A program made the translations under genes and the position numbers. DNA of 24,409 bases from a virus. Positions within the stretch are counted from its first letter, which is position 1. Every line of letters starts with the position of its first letter. Positions 3,001 through 24,355 of this stretch are shown in pieces. Location of the stretch: positions 1 to 24,409 of the IMG/VR virus record IMGVR_UViG_3300048589_000284; one strand, written 5' to 3'. The notes under the pieces are model-generated. The model saw nothing but the letters and a program-made list of their open reading frames with translations. It had not been told where the DNA came from and made no database searches.

Positions 3001-6000
3001 ACCCGCTGGTCGATCAGGGCGGCTAGGTCCTCCCGGCGCTTCACCGCCATCAGGTGCTCGGGGGAGCCCGGGTCCTGCTGGGCTGCCTCCAATACATCCC
3101 GGTCCAGCCGGGCCAAGCCCTCTTCCGGGTTGTTCACGATGGCAAGGTCATCTACCACCGATCGGGCTACGTCCGCCATCTCTTCTGCGGTCGGCTTGCC
3201 CCACGCCTCGTGGTACGCGGCCTTGGCCTGCGCCAACTCAGCGCCGTAGACCCGCTCGGCTTCGTCGTAGCTAGAAGCCTTGTCCTTGGCCTTGTCGATC
3301 ATGGCCTGCCTGCGCCTGTCGCTCATCTTCTGCCAGTCGGCGTAGCGCCGCTTGGCATCTCGGTGAGCCTCGCGCAGACGGTTGAGTGTGGCGAAGTCCG
3401 TCTTGGTCTTGTTGGGCTTGCGTCGCAGGTCAGCGATCTGCTTGCTTGTGGACGACATGACCTCGGCGGCCTTCTCGTAGGATTCCACGGTGCGCTGGCC
3501 CGGGAACATGCCGTCGTCAAACGCCCGGAGGTTGCGACGCGACTCTTCCTTGACCCGCTGAAGCTCCTTCGCGCCCTTTTCGCGCGGCAGTTCGGGAACC
3601 TCGATTACCTCGTCCTCGGGGATTTCGCCCCGGTTGTAGCGGCCGCGACTCTCTCTCGCTACCGTGGCCATCGTTTCGGCCTTCAGGGCGTCGAGGTCCG
3701 GGCCCATCAGGTCCTTCGTGAGCGCAGTATCGACGTCTGCCATGTACGCCGTCTGAAGCCGCTCGACCACCTGCCCGATCTTGGTCCGTGGGTCGTAGAA
3801 ACCCTTGGGCGCATGACGCGCCGCTTCCAGCAGGGATCGTTCGCCGGGGGCTTCGGCGGGGTTGGCTGCGATCAGATTGTCTATGTCTCGGCGATCGAGC
3901 TTGCGGCCCTTGCCCAAGAAGATCGGCAGGAGCGCCAGCGTCGTGCGCGACACGACATCAGCGTCAGCGTCGTAGTTCGGGTCTTTCTCTCGGGCCGCGA
4001 CGTAGTCGTCGAAGTCCTTCCACAAGCCCTTGAACTTCTTTGCGTTGAGCTTGCGTTCTTCCTTGCTGACGCGCTTGAAGATGCGAGCCCGTGCGGAGTC
4101 GCGCATATGCGACTCTCGGCTCTGTACCACCGTGGCGGCCACCTTCTCGTTCCACGTCCGCACACGGTCGTTGACCGTGCTCCAATGCTCCTTGCCGTGC
4201 CACGGGTCCGTGGGAATCTTGCCGACAGTCTTGCTGAACATGGGCAGTCCCGCACCCTTGAATCCGGCCGCTGTCAGGACCGTCGCGTTTATCGGCCCCA
4301 TGTAGCCGTACTCGTTCGCGGTCATGTCCGCGATTTCCTCGGCGCTGCCGTTCCAGTAGGTGTCGTACATGTTGATGGCTTCCTTGCCATACGCTTTGGT
4401 GAGCTCGACGGTGGGGGCGATGGCCTCGCCGGGCTTCGTCGGGTCTTCCAGCAGGTCGCGGGTTCCCGCTGCGAGGCTCGCGCCGTAGGCCAGAGGCGCG
4501 ATGAACATGCCCATCAGGCTTCGTGCGGTGGCCAGCGAGGCGTCCTTCACGTTGGCCTGAAGGGTGCCCTCGACCATGTTGTCCAGCGAGCCATCGACCG
4601 CGGCCGCCACCGGAAGGGCGACCCCCGACCCGTACCTTGCCCCCTTGAACGCCTGCCTGCGAGTGATCTTCCCGCCCGGGCGTAGCGGAGCGTCCATGGC
4701 CTTGCGCCACTTGGCGACGGTCTTCGAGGCATCCTTGGCTCCCTTGTAGCCCAGCCTTGCGGCATCCCACGCATCGTCGCCGTGGGTGGCTGCCTTTCCG
4801 GCCGCCGTAGCTACAGCCTTCCCGCCCTTCGTAATCTTCCCGACCGTTCCCGCTACGGGGATCATGCTCAGGGCTACGATCCGTTCTTCGGGCGTCATGT
4901 CGGCAGAGCTCTTGACCAGCTGAAGGGCCGCTTCGTTCACTCCCCCCTCAAGGAAGGCCTCGCCCACTTCCTTCGCGTTCTTCGTGCCGCCTTCCCAGAG
5001 CGTTGTTAGCCCGAACACCGAGTCGGCCAGACCCGCGGTGACCTTGACGGGGTTCATGGCATCCTTCTCTGCCTGAACCTGAGCGTCGGTCACGGGGGTG
5101 GCGGCGTCCTCCTTGACCAGCCCACGGATCGTCCTGCGGCGGACGCGACGGTTTTCTGTGGCGGCCCCCTTCCAAGGGGTGTCATCTTCGAGCCCCCGCT
5201 TCACCGCCTCTTCGTGGTCGCCCTGCGAATAGTCGGCCGCGGCGAGGTCTCGCTGGGCCTGCTTCTTGGGGTCGTTGCGAATCTTCAGGAGCTTGCGCCG
5301 CTCGTTCTCCCAGTTCTTCAGCCGGGCGGTGCGGTCCTTGAACCGCTGCCTCTCGTTCCACGTCTTCCGGTCGTCGGCGTTGAGACCGATTTCGTCCAGC
5401 TGCCCCTTGAAGTAGTCGATGCGCTCGTCTACCTCTTCGATCCGTGCGTCGATCGCGGGGCGCGCAATCTCGTTGACTTCCTTGGTCGTCTTCTGGCGCT
5501 CCATCTTGGCCACGCCCTGCGGGACTGACTCCCCTGACCTGACGATGCCCTTGGCCAGATTGCCTGCCTGTTTGCCAAAGTCGTAGCCGAGTGCCTTGTT
5601 CAGCGTCTTCTTGGCCTTCGGGTCCATGGGCGGCTTTGGCTCGCGGACCTTCTTGGGCTCCTTGACGGGGCCCGTCTTGGCGATGCCCCGCTTCAGGCGC
5701 TTGGTCTGGCCGCCGAAGTTGTAGCGGACGGTCTCCTTCTGGGCCTTCACAACTGACTTGGCAAGGACGTTCATCGCGTCCTTCGTCTGTTTCTTGGCGT
5801 CCTTCTCGTCCTTCGCGGCCTCGATGGCCTCGCTTGAAGCCTCCTGCCGTGCTGCGTCCCGGGCGGCCCGGTAAAGCTTCAGCGCCTGTACGGACGATGG
5901 CTCCGAAGGCTGCGGTGCCGACGTCGCCGGGTCGTAGTACTCGGGGTTGTAGGTGATGTCCGTAGGTGCCGTACCTGCCGCGTCGGCGATGTCCTGCGGG

Positions 6001-7229: not shown

Positions 7230-8139
7230 TCTGTTTCACCCTCTTGTTGTGCTTCCTGATGGCAGCATCGCGCCGCCGTCGGATGTTGTGAATACGTTTG
7301 CGAATCTTCTTCTTGCGCTCAGGATCGTCGACCTTCTCGTACTTGGCGCGCAGTTGCCTGATGCGCTTGTTCTCGCCCTTGACGCGCTGCTTGATGTTGA
7401 TGCTGTAGTCCGGCGCGCCGCTCTCGGCCTGCTCGGCACGACGGGCATCGGCACGAGCGGTCGCTGCTGCCGCTGCTGCCGTCCACTCCGTACCCGAGTT
7501 CGGCGTCAGGCGCAGGCGTATGTCAGCGCGCTCGGCAGCCCGGGCCGAGTCGGCCGACAGCTTGTCGGACCTCATGCGGTCAGCGTTGTAGACGAGGTCG
7601 ATGTCGCCTTCAATCTGGTCGCGGCGATGCATACCCGAGTACACCGACGAGCCTCGTCCAAGGAGAGACTCTGCGAGGTTGCGCCGGGAGCGGTCCCGAT
7701 CGGTCAGCAGCCGGTTGGTCTCGCGCTCGTAGTCGTTGTCGGCGTTCGTCTGCTCTGCGATCGTCCGGGCGCTCTCAGTCATGAACTGCGAGTTGAGCGC
7801 GGCGATGTTGGCCCAGTACTCCTTGTCGGTCGGCACGACGGGTGCCGGGGCCTTGCGCTTGGAGGTCAGAATCTTTGGGGGCCCCTGATACTCCTTGGGC
7901 TTGGTATCCCATCCGGCGCTGACGTCCTTCGGGTTCTTCGGCTTGTCCTGCGCGGAGGCCGGGTTCTTGTCGTTCGGCGTGATCTGCGACGGAGGCGGCG
8001 TGGCACCACCCGTCGCGTAGTTACTGGAAGCACCCGCCATGGACCCGGCGACGTTGCGAACTTGTGGTGCCGCCGGGGCTGACGGGGCGCGGGTAGCAGC
8101 GATCTTGTTGACCAGTTTCTTTTGCCCCTGAAGAATCAA
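7222..8139 (-). CDS. Putative internal virion protein, 305 aa, basic
   Basis: The start is TTG at 8139, five bases after a GAGGG ribosome site; no in-frame ATG lies near. The first 100 residues are Pro/Ala/Lys-rich and probably disordered. Residues about 105-235 are helical and Arg/Ala/Glu-rich, with an Ala run (TAAAAAATARADARRA). The last 60 residues are extremely basic (ERKKKIRKRIHNIRRRR), suggesting nucleic-acid or membrane contact. It lies between the fibre genes and the 359-residue protein, which it overlaps by 8 bases, so co-expression is likely. Composition and position suggest an internal or ejected virion protein. No family was recognised. Confidence 0.78.
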   Translation of the reverse strand: MILQGQKKLVNKIAATRAPSAPAAPQVRNVAGSMAGASSNYATGGATPPPSQITPNDKNPASAQDKPKNPKDVSAGWDTKPKEYQGPPKILTSKRKAPAPVVPTDKEYWANIAALNSQFMTESARTIAEQTNADNDYERETNRLLTDRDRSRRNLAESLLGRGSSVYSGMHRRDQIEGDIDLVYNADRMRSDKLSADSARAAERADIRLRLTPNSGTEWTAAAAAATARADARRAEQAESGAPDYSINIKQRVKGENKRIRQLRAKYEKVDDPERKKKIRKRIHNIRRRRDAAIRKHNKRVKQNG

Positions 8140-21114: not shown

Positions 21115-22671
21115 CTACGCGAGCAGCGGGGGCCCGGCGGTCATTTCCTCGAGTTCCTCGCGGACGATTCGCTCTAGGTGGGTTTCGTTGTCGGGGATGT
21201 CTTCGTGGGGCAGGTACGGGCGGCTCATCACGGCGTAGCGCCACTGGTCCATCTGGTGGTCGTTGGCCTTGACGGGTTCTTCCTTGCCCTCTGACTCTGT
21301 CTTCGGCGGTTTCTTCCAGCGGTACTGGCGAATCTCTTTCAGGAAGTTCACGCAGTTGGACGTGACGTGGAAGCGCCCGGAGTCGAGGCGCTCGCGGCAG
21401 CGGTTGATGCCAGCGGTGACTTTCTTCTGGGCGGGGATGGTGACGATGCCGTGGTCGGCGTACTCCATCTGGTCGGAGCGGCCGGTCTGGTTGTTCCGGT
21501 TGGCAGCCGCGGAGTCGATGACGTAGTAGATCGGCTTGAAGCCGTAGGCGGCCTCGACCAGCTGGATTTCGTGGCAAACCTCGCTGATCTTGTGCTCCTT
21601 GAGATGGAGTTCCTCGAACATGACCATGTTGTCGGCCGCGTCGATGTAGTGGAAGCCAACGGCGGTGGCGAAGCGGAAGCCCGGGTCGATCGAGACCACG
21701 ACGTTGACATTGGTGGGCAGGGAGTCGATCGGGTCGATGACGTGGCGCTCGGGATCGAACCGCTTGTAGATCAGGCCGCTCATGGCGACGAACTTGCCCT
21801 TTTTCCGGGCTTCGCGTTCCTCTTCCGAGAGGCCCTCAAGCGCGATTGCCTTCGCGGTCGGGGTCAGCCACGGATTGTCGTCCATGTCGGAGTAGACCAG
21901 CCCCTTCTTGATCAGGACGCCTCCCTCGCCGGGCGACTCCACGATCGAGTAGCCGATGTCGTCTATCTCGGCTTCGACGATGTTGTTCTCGAAGTTGTCG
22001 TAGGTATGGCTGAGTCCCTCGACCGGCGTCATGGAGAAAAGCACCTGCCCTTCCCGCCGCATGACACGGATGCGCGATTCCCGCAGGTGAACGGGTGCGG
22101 GTTCCTCGTCCAAGTGGACCCGGTCGAGCGTAGAGCCGCCCCACTGCTTGCCGTCCTGCTGGTAGGTCTTGAACTGGATGTAGCTCTTGTTCTTGAAGTG
22201 GAGGACGTGGTGCTGGGAGTCGTAGGCGGTCTTCCAAGAGCCCCCGACCAGCTGGTCCATCGGGCACCACTCCTTGAGCTTCTCGAAGACGAAGTCTTCC
22301 AACTCTTCACGGCCCTGACCGCCTATCCGGCAGCGGAACGGAGGCGTGTGCGTCTTGAACCTCTTCAAGTGCTCAGGAACGACATCCCAGTCCACACACT
22401 GAATGATGTCGTCGACCGTACCCGAGGTCGTCTTTCCTGACTGGTTACCGCCCATGTAGGCCACTTCCGGCAGACCCATGGCGACCATCTCGTGGAACTT
22501 GATCTGCTTCTTATGTACGGGACCGAGCCGCGGGTTGTTGTATCTGATCAGCGGGTTCTGTTCGATCGCCGCTTCAAGATTCTTGAGTTCCTCTTCCGCC
22601 TCTTCTCTCAGGTGCGGAGGCAGCCGCTCAAGGCGTCTGCGGTCAATCTTCAGTTTCTTGGGCACGGACAA
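21115..22671 (-). CDS. terL: Terminase large subunit
   Basis: This is the DNA-packaging ATPase and nuclease. Walker A is GGNQSGKT at 22429-22452, and Walker B is LDRVHLDEEP about 110 residues later. The RNase-H-like nuclease carries VVSIDPGFRFATAVGF, then YYVIDSAAANR, then NDHQMDQWRYAV, supplying the acidic metal ligands. The C-terminus is acidic and helical. The start is unclear: no in-frame ATG occurs before Walker A. TTG 22671 and GTG 22665 sit just before a typical N-terminus (PKKLKIDRRRLERLPPHL). A TTG at 22797 would add 42 atypical, Pro/Ser/Arg-rich residues. None has a good ribosome site. It acts at the portal to cut and translocate DNA. No small-subunit gene was recognised beside it. 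Confidence 0.92.
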   Translation of the reverse strand: MSVPKKLKIDRRRLERLPPHLREEAEEELKNLEAAIEQNPLIRYNNPRLGPVHKKQIKFHEMVAMGLPEVAYMGGNQSGKTTSGTVDDIIQCVDWDVVPEHLKRFKTHTPPFRCRIGGQGREELEDFVFEKLKEWCPMDQLVGGSWKTAYDSQHHVLHFKNKSYIQFKTYQQDGKQWGGSTLDRVHLDEEPAPVHLRESRIRVMRREGQVLFSMTPVEGLSHTYDNFENNIVEAEIDDIGYSIVESPGEGGVLIKKGLVYSDMDDNPWLTPTAKAIALEGLSEEEREARKKGKFVAMSGLIYKRFDPERHVIDPIDSLPTNVNVVVSIDPGFRFATAVGFHYIDAADNMVMFEELHLKEHKISEVCHEIQLVEAAYGFKPIYYVIDSAAANRNNQTGRSDQMEYADHGIVTIPAQKKVTAGINRCRERLDSGRFHVTSNCVNFLKEIRQYRWKKPPKTESEGKEEPVKANDHQMDQWRYAVMSRPYLPHEDIPDNETHLERIVREELEEMTAGPPLLA

Positions 22672-23015
22672 ATGGTAACCGGGAAGACGGGCCCTACTGC
22701 GGGAGGCGCATGGAGGGAGCGGAGGCAGACTGCCCCCTGACAGGGGAACAGTTCTGCGGTCGGCGATGTCAGTCGCGTCAGCAATACGAGAGTTCAAGCG
22801 TGTCCGGGCCCAGCGTTACCACTCACTCTCGCCTGCCAGCCAAAGGCTCTGGGGCGGGTCAAAATCCGGAATGGGAAGTAAGGCCCCTCTGACGGGCGAT
22901 AAAGGTCGTGAGCGGCGCCGTATGGACTGCGTTTCGGCTATGCTTCGTACCAGTACGGATTGGCGTCCGCTAGAGCGTAGCAGAGGCACCCGCCACGTTC
23001 TTCTTACGCAGCAGG
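22672..23015 (-). promoter_or_regulatory. Untranslated region upstream of terminase; probable late-promoter region
   Basis: About 340 bases without a convincing gene on either strand. They lie between the terminators and the first gene of the structural operon, so the late promoter or a long leader should be here. I could not find a convincing -35/-10 pair; a host sigma-70 type promoter is not obvious and a phage-specific one is possible. Small inverted repeats occur, for example CGTACCAGTACG near 22947-22958. The open frames crossing this region have unlikely composition and run through the terminator. Confidence 0.4.
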
Positions 23016-23042
23016 GCCCCCGCAAGGGGGCTTTGTTGTTTC
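23016..23042 (+). terminator. Rho-independent terminator, plus strand
   Basis: The stem GCCCCC / GGGGGC closes on a GCAA tetraloop and is followed by TTTGTTGTTT. On the plus strand this is a textbook intrinsic terminator; on the minus strand no U-run follows. It would stop rightward transcripts, yet no rightward gene is visible upstream. Confidence 0.75.
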
Positions 23043-23046
23043 TCAG

Positions 23047-23077
23047 AACGACAAAGGGCCCCGAAGGGCCCCCTGTC
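23047..23077 (-). terminator. Rho-independent terminator, minus strand
   Basis: In minus-strand RNA a GGGCCC-UUCG-GGGCCC hairpin is followed by UUUGUCGUU. The stem can be lengthened by two G-U pairs and GACA/UGUC. It sits 30 bases after the stop of the 100-residue gene and should end the early operon, separating it from the terminase operon. Confidence 0.78.
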
Positions 23078-23106
23078 AGCGTGACTCGTCCGTCCGAGAT
23101 TCTAGC

Positions 23107-23409
23107 TCACTGGAACTTGGCTTCGGTGAACTTCTCGACCGGCTTGTGCTGCACAACTCGGCTGGTGGGGATGAAGGACCGGGCAGGAACGGCGATGAAG
23201 GTGCCGGACTCGTCGGTCGCTTCCTTGATGGCCTGATGCCGGGTGAAGCCGCTGAACGTGGCAGGCTTCCCGTCCTTGATCCCGCCGACGACGTTGAAGA
23301 CGGGGCCGGGGAACTCTGCCGAGAGCCCCTGCTTGTTCATCTCAAGCACGACGTACTCGGTCGGCTTCTGTTTGGGCTGGCCGTTGATCGGCGCGTCTTC
23401 TGGGTCCAT
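23107..23409 (-). CDS. Hypothetical protein, last gene of the regulatory operon, 100 aa
   Basis: I place the start at ATG 23409 (MDPEDAPINGQPKQ) because an AAAGGA ribosome site lies 8 bases upstream. The frame is open further upstream, but that part overlaps the four-cysteine gene in another frame. The product is a small mixed alpha/beta protein: TEYVVLEMNKQG, then GPVFNVVGGIKDGKP, HQAIKEATDESGTFIAVPARSF and a basic end. I do not recognise it. A terminator follows directly, so it closes the operon. An AT-rich block just upstream may hold its own promoter. Confidence 0.75.
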   Translation of the reverse strand: MDPEDAPINGQPKQKPTEYVVLEMNKQGLSAEFPGPVFNVVGGIKDGKPATFSGFTRHQAIKEATDESGTFIAVPARSFIPTSRVVQHKPVEKFTEAKFQ

Positions 23410-23436
23410 CTGGGGTGTCCTTTCTCTTGGGTTCAC

Positions 23437-23452
23437 TATGTAAAAAATTTTG
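23437..23452 (-). promoter_or_regulatory. AT-rich block upstream of the 100-aa gene, possible promoter
   Basis: An A/T-only tract of 11 bases (TAAAAAATTTT on the plus strand, 23441-23451), next to TACATAGT in minus reading, stands out in GC-rich DNA. It lies about 30-45 bases before the 100-residue gene. It could be a -10 region or an UP-like element. No clear -35 box was found. Confidence 0.25.
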
Positions 23453-23470
23453 AGAGGGGGTGCTGTTTCC

Positions 23471-23620
23471 TCAGGCTCGCATTTCCCGGTCCCTGCGGTC
23501 TTCTCGCAGGCAGTCACGGCACAGATGCTCAGTCCGCGGGGTTCCGGCCGGATTCAGCCCATGAGGCCTCCTGACGACGCTGAGGGACGTCACTTCCCGT
23601 TTACAGCGATCGCAGGTCAC
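23471..23620 (-). CDS. Four-cysteine zinc-finger-like protein, 49 aa
   Basis: The GTG at 23620 overlaps the stop of the upstream gene as GTGA. The product begins MTCDRCKREVTSL and ends near HLCRDCLREDRRDREMRA. Cys3/Cys6 and Cys34/Cys37 form two CxxC knuckles about 27 residues apart, the spacing of small zinc-ribbon or zinc-finger phage proteins. The end is strongly charged. Its position after a ribbon-helix-helix gene suggests a regulatory or nucleic-acid-binding role. The zinc site is inferred from the cysteines, but the cysteine pattern and the stop-start overlap make a chance frame unlikely. Confidence 0.7.
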   Translation of the reverse strand: MTCDRCKREVTSLSVVRRPHGLNPAGTPRTEHLCRDCLREDRRDREMRA

Positions 23621-23793
23621 GACCGGGTGGGGGTGAAGGCACCGGGATCAGGCAGGGAGATGGCCGGGTGGGCCTCGAGCCCAGCAGCAATACGCCGCTG
23701 CCACTCAGCAGCGAAGGCGTTGACCGCATCCTCGTAGGCGCGGGGCTCGTCTTCCTTGATCCTCTGGTCATCTATTTCGACGGTGATCCTCAT
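23617..23793 (-). CDS. Hypothetical small protein, 58 aa
   Basis: I choose ATG 23793 (MRITVEIDDQRI) since AAAGGGG lies 5-8 bases upstream. A longer frame to 23841 would lie wholly inside the ribbon-helix-helix gene. The product starts with a beta strand, then a helix (YEDAVNAFAAEWQRRIAAGLEA) and a Pro-rich tail. It overlaps the end of the ribbon-helix-helix gene by 26 bases and its stop overlaps the next start. A partner of the ribbon-helix-helix protein is possible, as in toxin-antitoxin or repressor pairs, but no toxin signature was seen. Confidence 0.65.
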   Translation of the reverse strand: MRITVEIDDQRIKEDEPRAYEDAVNAFAAEWQRRIAAGLEAHPAISLPDPGAFTPTRS

Positions 23794-23947
23794 GGCTGCC
23801 CCTTTCGGGATTGATTGCCGGTAACGGCTCCGAGGCCTCATTCAGCCTCTCCCGAATCCAGCTGGCCAGCGGTTGCGGTCCTGCGACTTCTTTCCACCTA
23901 GCCATCTCTGCCCGGGAGACCCTGATGTTCAGCTGCTTCTCAAGCAC
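23768..23947 (-). CDS. Ribbon-helix-helix (Arc/MetJ-like) DNA-binding protein, 59 aa
   Basis: The frame opens at GTG 23947, directly beside the 18-base palindrome. The first 12 residues, MLEKQLNIRVSR, give the DNA-reading beta strand. RAEMARWKEVAG forms helix A and PLASWIRERLNEAS helix B, the classic ribbon-helix-helix order. The last 20 residues are a charged tail that overlaps the next gene. There is no ribosome site before the GTG, and the TATACT in the palindrome would place the transcript start only a few bases upstream, so the mRNA may be nearly leaderless. It probably represses its own operon through the palindrome, as such dimers usually do; that is inference. Confidence 0.72.
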   Translation of the reverse strand: MLEKQLNIRVSRAEMARWKEVAGPQPLASWIRERLNEASEPLPAINPERGSHEDHRRNR

Positions 23948-23965
23948 GTCTATACAAGTATAGAC
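23948..23965 (-). promoter_or_regulatory. Perfect 18-base inverted repeat, operator overlapping a -10 element
   Basis: GTCTATAC-AA-GTATAGAC is a perfect 8+2+8 inverted repeat, AT-rich in GC-rich surroundings, ending exactly at the GTG of the ribbon-helix-helix gene. In minus reading it contains TATACT, a good -10 hexamer, while no good -35 box lies 16-18 bases upstream. A repressor bound here would block the promoter. Because the repeat is symmetric, a rightward -10 is also possible. Confidence 0.7.
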
Positions 23966-24010
23966 TACACGGCTCCGTGAGGAAGGTGGGGGGTACTGGT
24001 GACACCCATA

Positions 24011-24017
24011 TCTATAC
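24011..24017 (+). promoter_or_regulatory. Possible second operator half-site
   Basis: TCTATAC repeats seven of the eight bases of one arm of the 18-base palindrome, 62 bases away (about six helical turns). It lies in the upstream flank of the same promoter. It may be a weak extra repressor site, or chance. Confidence 0.3.
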
Positions 24018-24083: not shown

Positions 24084-24149
24084 TCATCACGGCGAGACTG
24101 GACTAATCCCTAGCCCCCATGAGAAGAGATAAGCAAGCGGATACCAGCT

Positions 24150-24210
24150 ACCCAGCCAGCTAGCCTCCAAAGCCTAGCCAGACTGACCAACCCAGCCAGT
24201 CACCCAGCCA
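24150..24210. repeat. Short direct repeats, ACCCAGCCA type
   Basis: ACCCAGCCA occurs at 24150-24158, 24190-24198 and 24202-24210, and a related AGCCTAGCCAG at 24171-24181. GACTG and CAGTC flank the middle copy as an inverted pair. Spacing is irregular. The cluster could be an iteron-like binding array, but the repeats are short. Confidence 0.4.
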
Positions 24211-24355
24211 TTCGTGTCTTCTCTACATACGGACTACGGTAGCCCGGGCCAAGGCCCAGCCTTCGCTCGCTGCTGGCTATCCCTGCTCTAGCGCGGCATA
24301 GCGCAGCTTCGCTACCCGTACTGTCCTTCGTGTACTTCAACGGCTAGGCGTACAC

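Follow-up and report, generated by a model that had tools for sequence, protein, structure and literature searches.

The locus near the right end of this phage DNA raises the question of whether a very small gene carries its promoter, its operator and its start codon in one short stretch, and whether its own product is the protein that acts there. The window, that is, the whole virus record of 24,409 bases, is read as a fragment of a tailed phage. On its minus strand, a GTG at 23945-23947 opens a 59-codon ORF (23768-23947), assigned as a probable ribbon-helix-helix (RHH) DNA-binding protein from the ORF call, the predicted fold and alignment of a strand motif. The GTG directly adjoins a perfect 8+2+8 palindrome at 23948-23965 (no strand assigned), whose sequence GTCTATACAAGTATAGAC divides into GTCTATAC-AA-GTATAGAC; the coding strand across the site reads GTCTATACTTGTATAGAC-GTG. 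The preliminary description had placed a palindrome with TATACT against the GTG of a 59-residue gene, and these coordinates bear it out. We propose that this site is an operator which also holds the -10 element, and that the near-leaderless RHH gene represses itself through it. We put the probability of this reading at roughly 60%.

First, such a palindrome may arise by chance. In shuffled sequences, palindromes with perfect arms of at least 8 bases and a gap of at most 4 were counted, and those with at least 66% AT were taken as the AT-rich class. The whole contig holds one such palindrome, against a mean of 2.57 per shuffled contig, and by number alone this is ordinary, not rare. The mean for the AT-rich class is only 0.01 per shuffled contig. 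When the 60 nt upstream of the GTG were shuffled, any such palindrome appeared in 0.7% of cases, and for the 462-nt right end in 3.75%. An AT-rich palindrome touching a start codon in DNA of 62% GC is unlikely to have a chance origin; it is notable because of its place and composition, and not because of symmetry alone. It may be argued that an AT-rich promoter core happens to be palindromic before an ORF that is perhaps untranslated, and the weak coding statistic of the ORF and the chance of about 4% in the right-hand region are in line with this. Such a coincidence is nevertheless quite unlikely, since perfect symmetry, AT-richness, contact with the start codon, a missing Shine-Dalgarno sequence and an RHH-like product occur here jointly.

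Second, the site seems to overlap the promoter of the gene itself. The proposed -10 hexamer, TATACT (23957-23962, minus strand), lies inside the palindrome and occupies -15 to -10, counted from the G of the GTG, with 9 nt between hexamer and codon. Only one further TANNNT hexamer occurs in the 100 nt upstream of the GTG, and the palindrome holds the only good -10 candidate as well as touching the GTG, so that promoter core, operator-like site and start codon would be packed in 21 bp. No -35 match was found for the gene (2/6 at best). Promoters lacking a -35 are usual in mycobacteria: in M. tuberculosis, the centre of TANNNT falls 7-12 bp upstream of the start site, there is no conserved -35, and toxin-antitoxin pairs mostly have leaderless mRNAs (32/37; PMC3898074). 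A leaderless mRNA would be expected to have the hexamer centred 7-12 bp before its first codon. Here the centre lies 12.5 bp before the G of the GTG, and the spacing fits best with a transcript start 2-3 nt before the GTG. At the usual -10 distance, transcription would begin about 3 nt upstream of the GTG, so that the gene can fairly be called "near-leaderless". As in leaderless genes, no Shine-Dalgarno sequence precedes the start codon: anti-Shine-Dalgarno pairing at this GTG is the weakest among 23 starts tested in the contig (+0.5 kcal/mol), whereas most others lie at -4 to -10 kcal/mol. No in-frame ATG, GTG or TTG occurs between the GTG and the nearest upstream stop. With fair confidence, we infer a leader of 0-3 nt, with the start site deduced from the position of the hexamer.

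Is the ORF product a protein that could read such a site? Members of the RHH superfamily (MetJ/Arc) have a beta-strand, a helix and a second helix within about 45 residues, with alternating polar DNA-contact residues on the strand. The sequence KQLNIRV-SRAEMARWKEVAG-PQPLASWIRERLNEA of the product reads like the strand-helix-helix pattern and shows the alternating polar residues. A single-sequence AlphaFold model has an extended N-terminus and helices at 12-22 and 27-38, at low confidence (pLDDT 70). When the model was compared with the whole PDB by Foldseek, the first match was the Arc repressor (probability 0.60, with a weak E of 2.0), and the RHH antitoxin VapB12 was also listed, likewise weakly (E 6.5; Z about 3 for both). 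These two, both RHH proteins, are the only sensible fold matches. In an alignment, Q5-L-N7-I-R9 stands opposite Q-F-N-L-R of Arc and H-F-N-F-R of Mnt; the positions of Q5, N7 and R9 are presumably those of the DNA-contact residues in Arc. No sequence relatives were found in phages, plasmids, viral contigs or the PDB, and Pfam, PHROGs, NCBIfam and PADLOC profiles gave no match. Short divergent RHH proteins are often missed by curated profiles, and a profile match is usual in the family, not strictly defining. The codon statistics are near background (mean log-odds -0.01, or 0.12 outside the overlap with the next ORF). With neither a sequence relative nor a codon signal above background, translation of the ORF is not proven, and the lack of relatives also means that conservation of the protein or the site cannot be shown. 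The RHH gene named in the preliminary description is consistent with the sequence and the fold comparison, and is weakened by the codon statistics and the missing relatives. On the model and the alignment, the ORF probably encodes an RHH protein, a fold assignment in which confidence is good.

From these elements, a simple circuit can be drawn for this tailed phage, which probably infects actinobacteria. A short operon, read leftward, would begin with the gene for a small RHH repressor. RNA polymerase would take TATACT in the palindrome as the -10 and start transcription 0-3 nt before the GTG, giving a leaderless or near-leaderless mRNA. The inverted GTATAGAC half-sites have a centre-to-centre distance of 10 bp; dimers of the product would insert the beta-ribbon of their N-termini, with Gln5, Asn7 and Arg9, at these half-sites and block the -10. 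Such negative autoregulation would cover the RHH gene and the three small genes that are presumably transcribed with it. With fair confidence, the protein is proposed to bind the palindrome. The preliminary description had suggested both the -10 with a nearly leaderless start and the autoregulation, and both agree with the sequence, with the comparison of folds and with published precedent. In the search for further copies of the site that it had proposed, the contig showed no second copy at up to 3 mismatches, and only a possible isolated half-site, ATCTATAC, was found at 24010-24017 (no strand assigned). This 7/8 match is the sole one in the contig (p about 0.05) and lies 62 bp, or about six helical turns, from the palindrome arm of like orientation.

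The same 18-mer was also sought elsewhere. A scan of 84,980 species, each represented by one genome, gave 20 stretches with the palindrome, most of them inside long ORFs, and viral collections gave 4 matches, one of which lies inside a 1677-codon ORF. These numbers are no more than chance would give. A widespread phage operator was considered and rejected, as none of the 4 viral matches stands at an RHH gene. Some of the matches nevertheless have promoter-like settings. In a gammaproteobacterial metagenome-assembled genome (L109), the identical 18-mer reads as the -10 region of mazEF (TTGACA, 16 bp, TATACT), the operon proteins matching MazE (8.6e-10) and PemK (4.2e-21); this mazEF promoter (2120-2205) has two further GTATAGAC half-sites. 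Before a Treponema gene, the identical 18-mer likewise reads as a -10 region (TTGACA, 17 bp, TATACT). Two other stretches, L105 and L100, carry it at 7482-7499 and within 1461-1486, respectively. A search of the literature for the half-site sequence gave nothing relevant among the titles listed. Judging from these promoters, the 18-mer can act as promoter core, and plausibly as operator, in contexts that are not related; this favours function, but the cognate protein is not nameable from the site.

This last point bears on who binds the palindrome in the phage. It may be the operator of another protein, such as a host GntR/HutC-type, a MazE-type or a phage repressor, while the RHH protein acts elsewhere. 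In L105, the identical 18-mer stands upstream of an apparent GntR-type regulator gene, judged from its sequence; in L100, it is part of a larger palindrome, ACTTGTCTATACTTGTATAGACAAGT; and in L109, it precedes the mazE gene, whose product belongs to Pfam MazE_antitoxin and not to RHH, so that several families may use such sites. However, the window lacks the outer AAGT/ACTT flanks that the site has in L100, and the regulator-like ORF directly adjoining the palindrome is the RHH gene itself. Binding by another protein is regarded as unlikely, and autoregulation by the RHH protein is retained as the preferred reading.

The genes around the site show what this autoregulation would control. The RHH ORF is the first of four small leftward ORFs. 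The second, a helical 58-codon ORF (23617-23793, minus strand), has a good Shine-Dalgarno sequence and a good coding statistic and overlaps the RHH ORF by 26 nt. It is followed by a 49-codon ORF of zinc-ribbon-like CxxC...CxxC sequence (23471-23620, minus) and by an ORF of up to 136 codons (23107-23517, minus), which also contains, at about 23409, an ATG preceded by a Shine-Dalgarno sequence. The RHH protein may be the antitoxin of a phage-borne toxin-antitoxin pair with the overlapping second ORF as its toxin, as this overlap, the Shine-Dalgarno sequence of that ORF and a layout resembling leaderless mycobacterial toxin-antitoxin promoters would allow. Against this, the second protein, of 58 amino acids, is predicted to consist mostly of a single long helix. 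Neither it nor the other two ORFs downstream of the RHH gene matches a toxin family in Pfam, NCBIfam or PADLOC, whereas a type II system should have a recognisable toxin gene next to the antitoxin gene. An antitoxin role is highly improbable, and a self-repressing gene without a recognisable toxin partner is preferred.

Beyond the small ORFs, strong GC-rich hairpins (22990-23106, minus; fold z = -3.7) resemble a terminator and separate this operon from the terminase large subunit gene (21115-22797, minus), identified by protein family match as the first of the virion genes. The main genes then run leftward through a P22/SU10-type portal and the major capsid protein, and the last ORF runs off the contig at its left end. 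The named phages with the nearest capsid proteins (about 30% identity) have Arthrobacter, Microbacterium and Cellulosimicrobium as hosts, suggesting that an actinobacterial host is likely. At 22786-22875 on the minus strand, in the leader or the 5'-terminal part of the terminase ORF, there is a full-length match to Rfam EGFOA (RF02955), which scores 33.5 bits where the gathering score is 37.7 (E 0.0002-0.0007); five terminase relatives had none at E up to 0.5. No tRNA was found in the window, and the contig has no terminal repeats of 12 bases or more. To the right of the palindrome, 444 bp of apparently non-coding DNA reach the contig end. Within it, 24100-24260 is rich in CCAGC/CTAGCC repeats, for example CCAGCTACCCAGCCA and a near copy, in a style like the intergenic region between oppositely directed ORFs in the closest terminase relative, L010.

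The preliminary description had supposed that the RHH gene sets a switch between an early operon on the left and what lies to its right. That the operon on the left is early is not supported: the left side is made up of three small ORFs, the terminator-like hairpin, terminase, portal, capsid and other virion genes. The switch is less well supported than the autoregulation, given these terminase and virion genes and a contig end 444 bp away on the right. Through the terminase, 80 loci of phage relatives were collected, the best being L010 at 58% identity; none of the 80 has this RHH protein or the palindrome. Another of them, L012, has an RHH-like ORF, but it is a different one and has no palindrome. 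Upstream of its terminase, L010 has a tRNA-Gln (TTG anticodon, 3643-3713) and small ORFs, and past an intergenic stretch it has oppositely directed ORFs, one of them sliding-clamp-like by eye. By analogy, the right end of the window may be a divergent region. Early genes on the right are suggested by analogy with L010 only, and L010 itself is without the RHH gene and the palindrome. It is very doubtful that a toxin-less phage RHH repressor, with an antitoxin-style operator embedding the -10 at a near-leaderless start, acts as a compact point of control, with the virion operon on one side and unseen early genes on the right.

Several known systems resemble parts of this arrangement. The RHH antitoxin MazE6 of M. 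tuberculosis binds an 18-bp operator, CCGGTTATACTATCTGTA, which holds the -10 TATACT (PMC9477884). As proposed for the window, an RHH protein is combined with an 18-bp site over this hexamer in an actinobacterial promoter dominated by its -10 (PMC9477884, PMC3898074), whereas MazE6 is paired with a toxin and its operator lacks perfect palindromic symmetry. A likeness between the two sites beyond TATACT was looked for and was not above that of shuffles. The phage P22 proteins Arc and Mnt are likewise small RHH proteins with the strand motif [QH]-x-N-x-R and operators overlapping promoters, to which the product in the window shows about 26% and 15% identity, respectively. The annotated Arc operator is TAGA-N5-TCTA and the palindrome here is TCTA-N8-TAGA; unlike the RHH gene in the window, P22 arc has ant downstream of it, and the arc mRNA carries a leader. 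On plasmid RA3, the RHH protein MobC represses its own operon through a palindrome with two 8-base arms in its own promoter (PMC4175270), but that site lies between -35 and -10, is GC-rich and imperfect, and goes with a ribosome binding site and a function in conjugation. The L109 mazEF promoter shares with the window the identical 18-mer, the use of TATACT as -10 and the place before a regulator gene, and differs in its MazE antitoxin/PemK toxin pair, perfect TTGACA -35, leader with Shine-Dalgarno sequence and extra half-sites. If autoregulation by the RHH protein is right, the locus would be a minimal self-repressing phage gene without a recognisable toxin-antitoxin pair, and a small case, easy to test, of the use that phages of actinobacteria may make of leaderless translation. 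Such a layout opens no new class of regulation and is already known for bacterial antitoxin genes.
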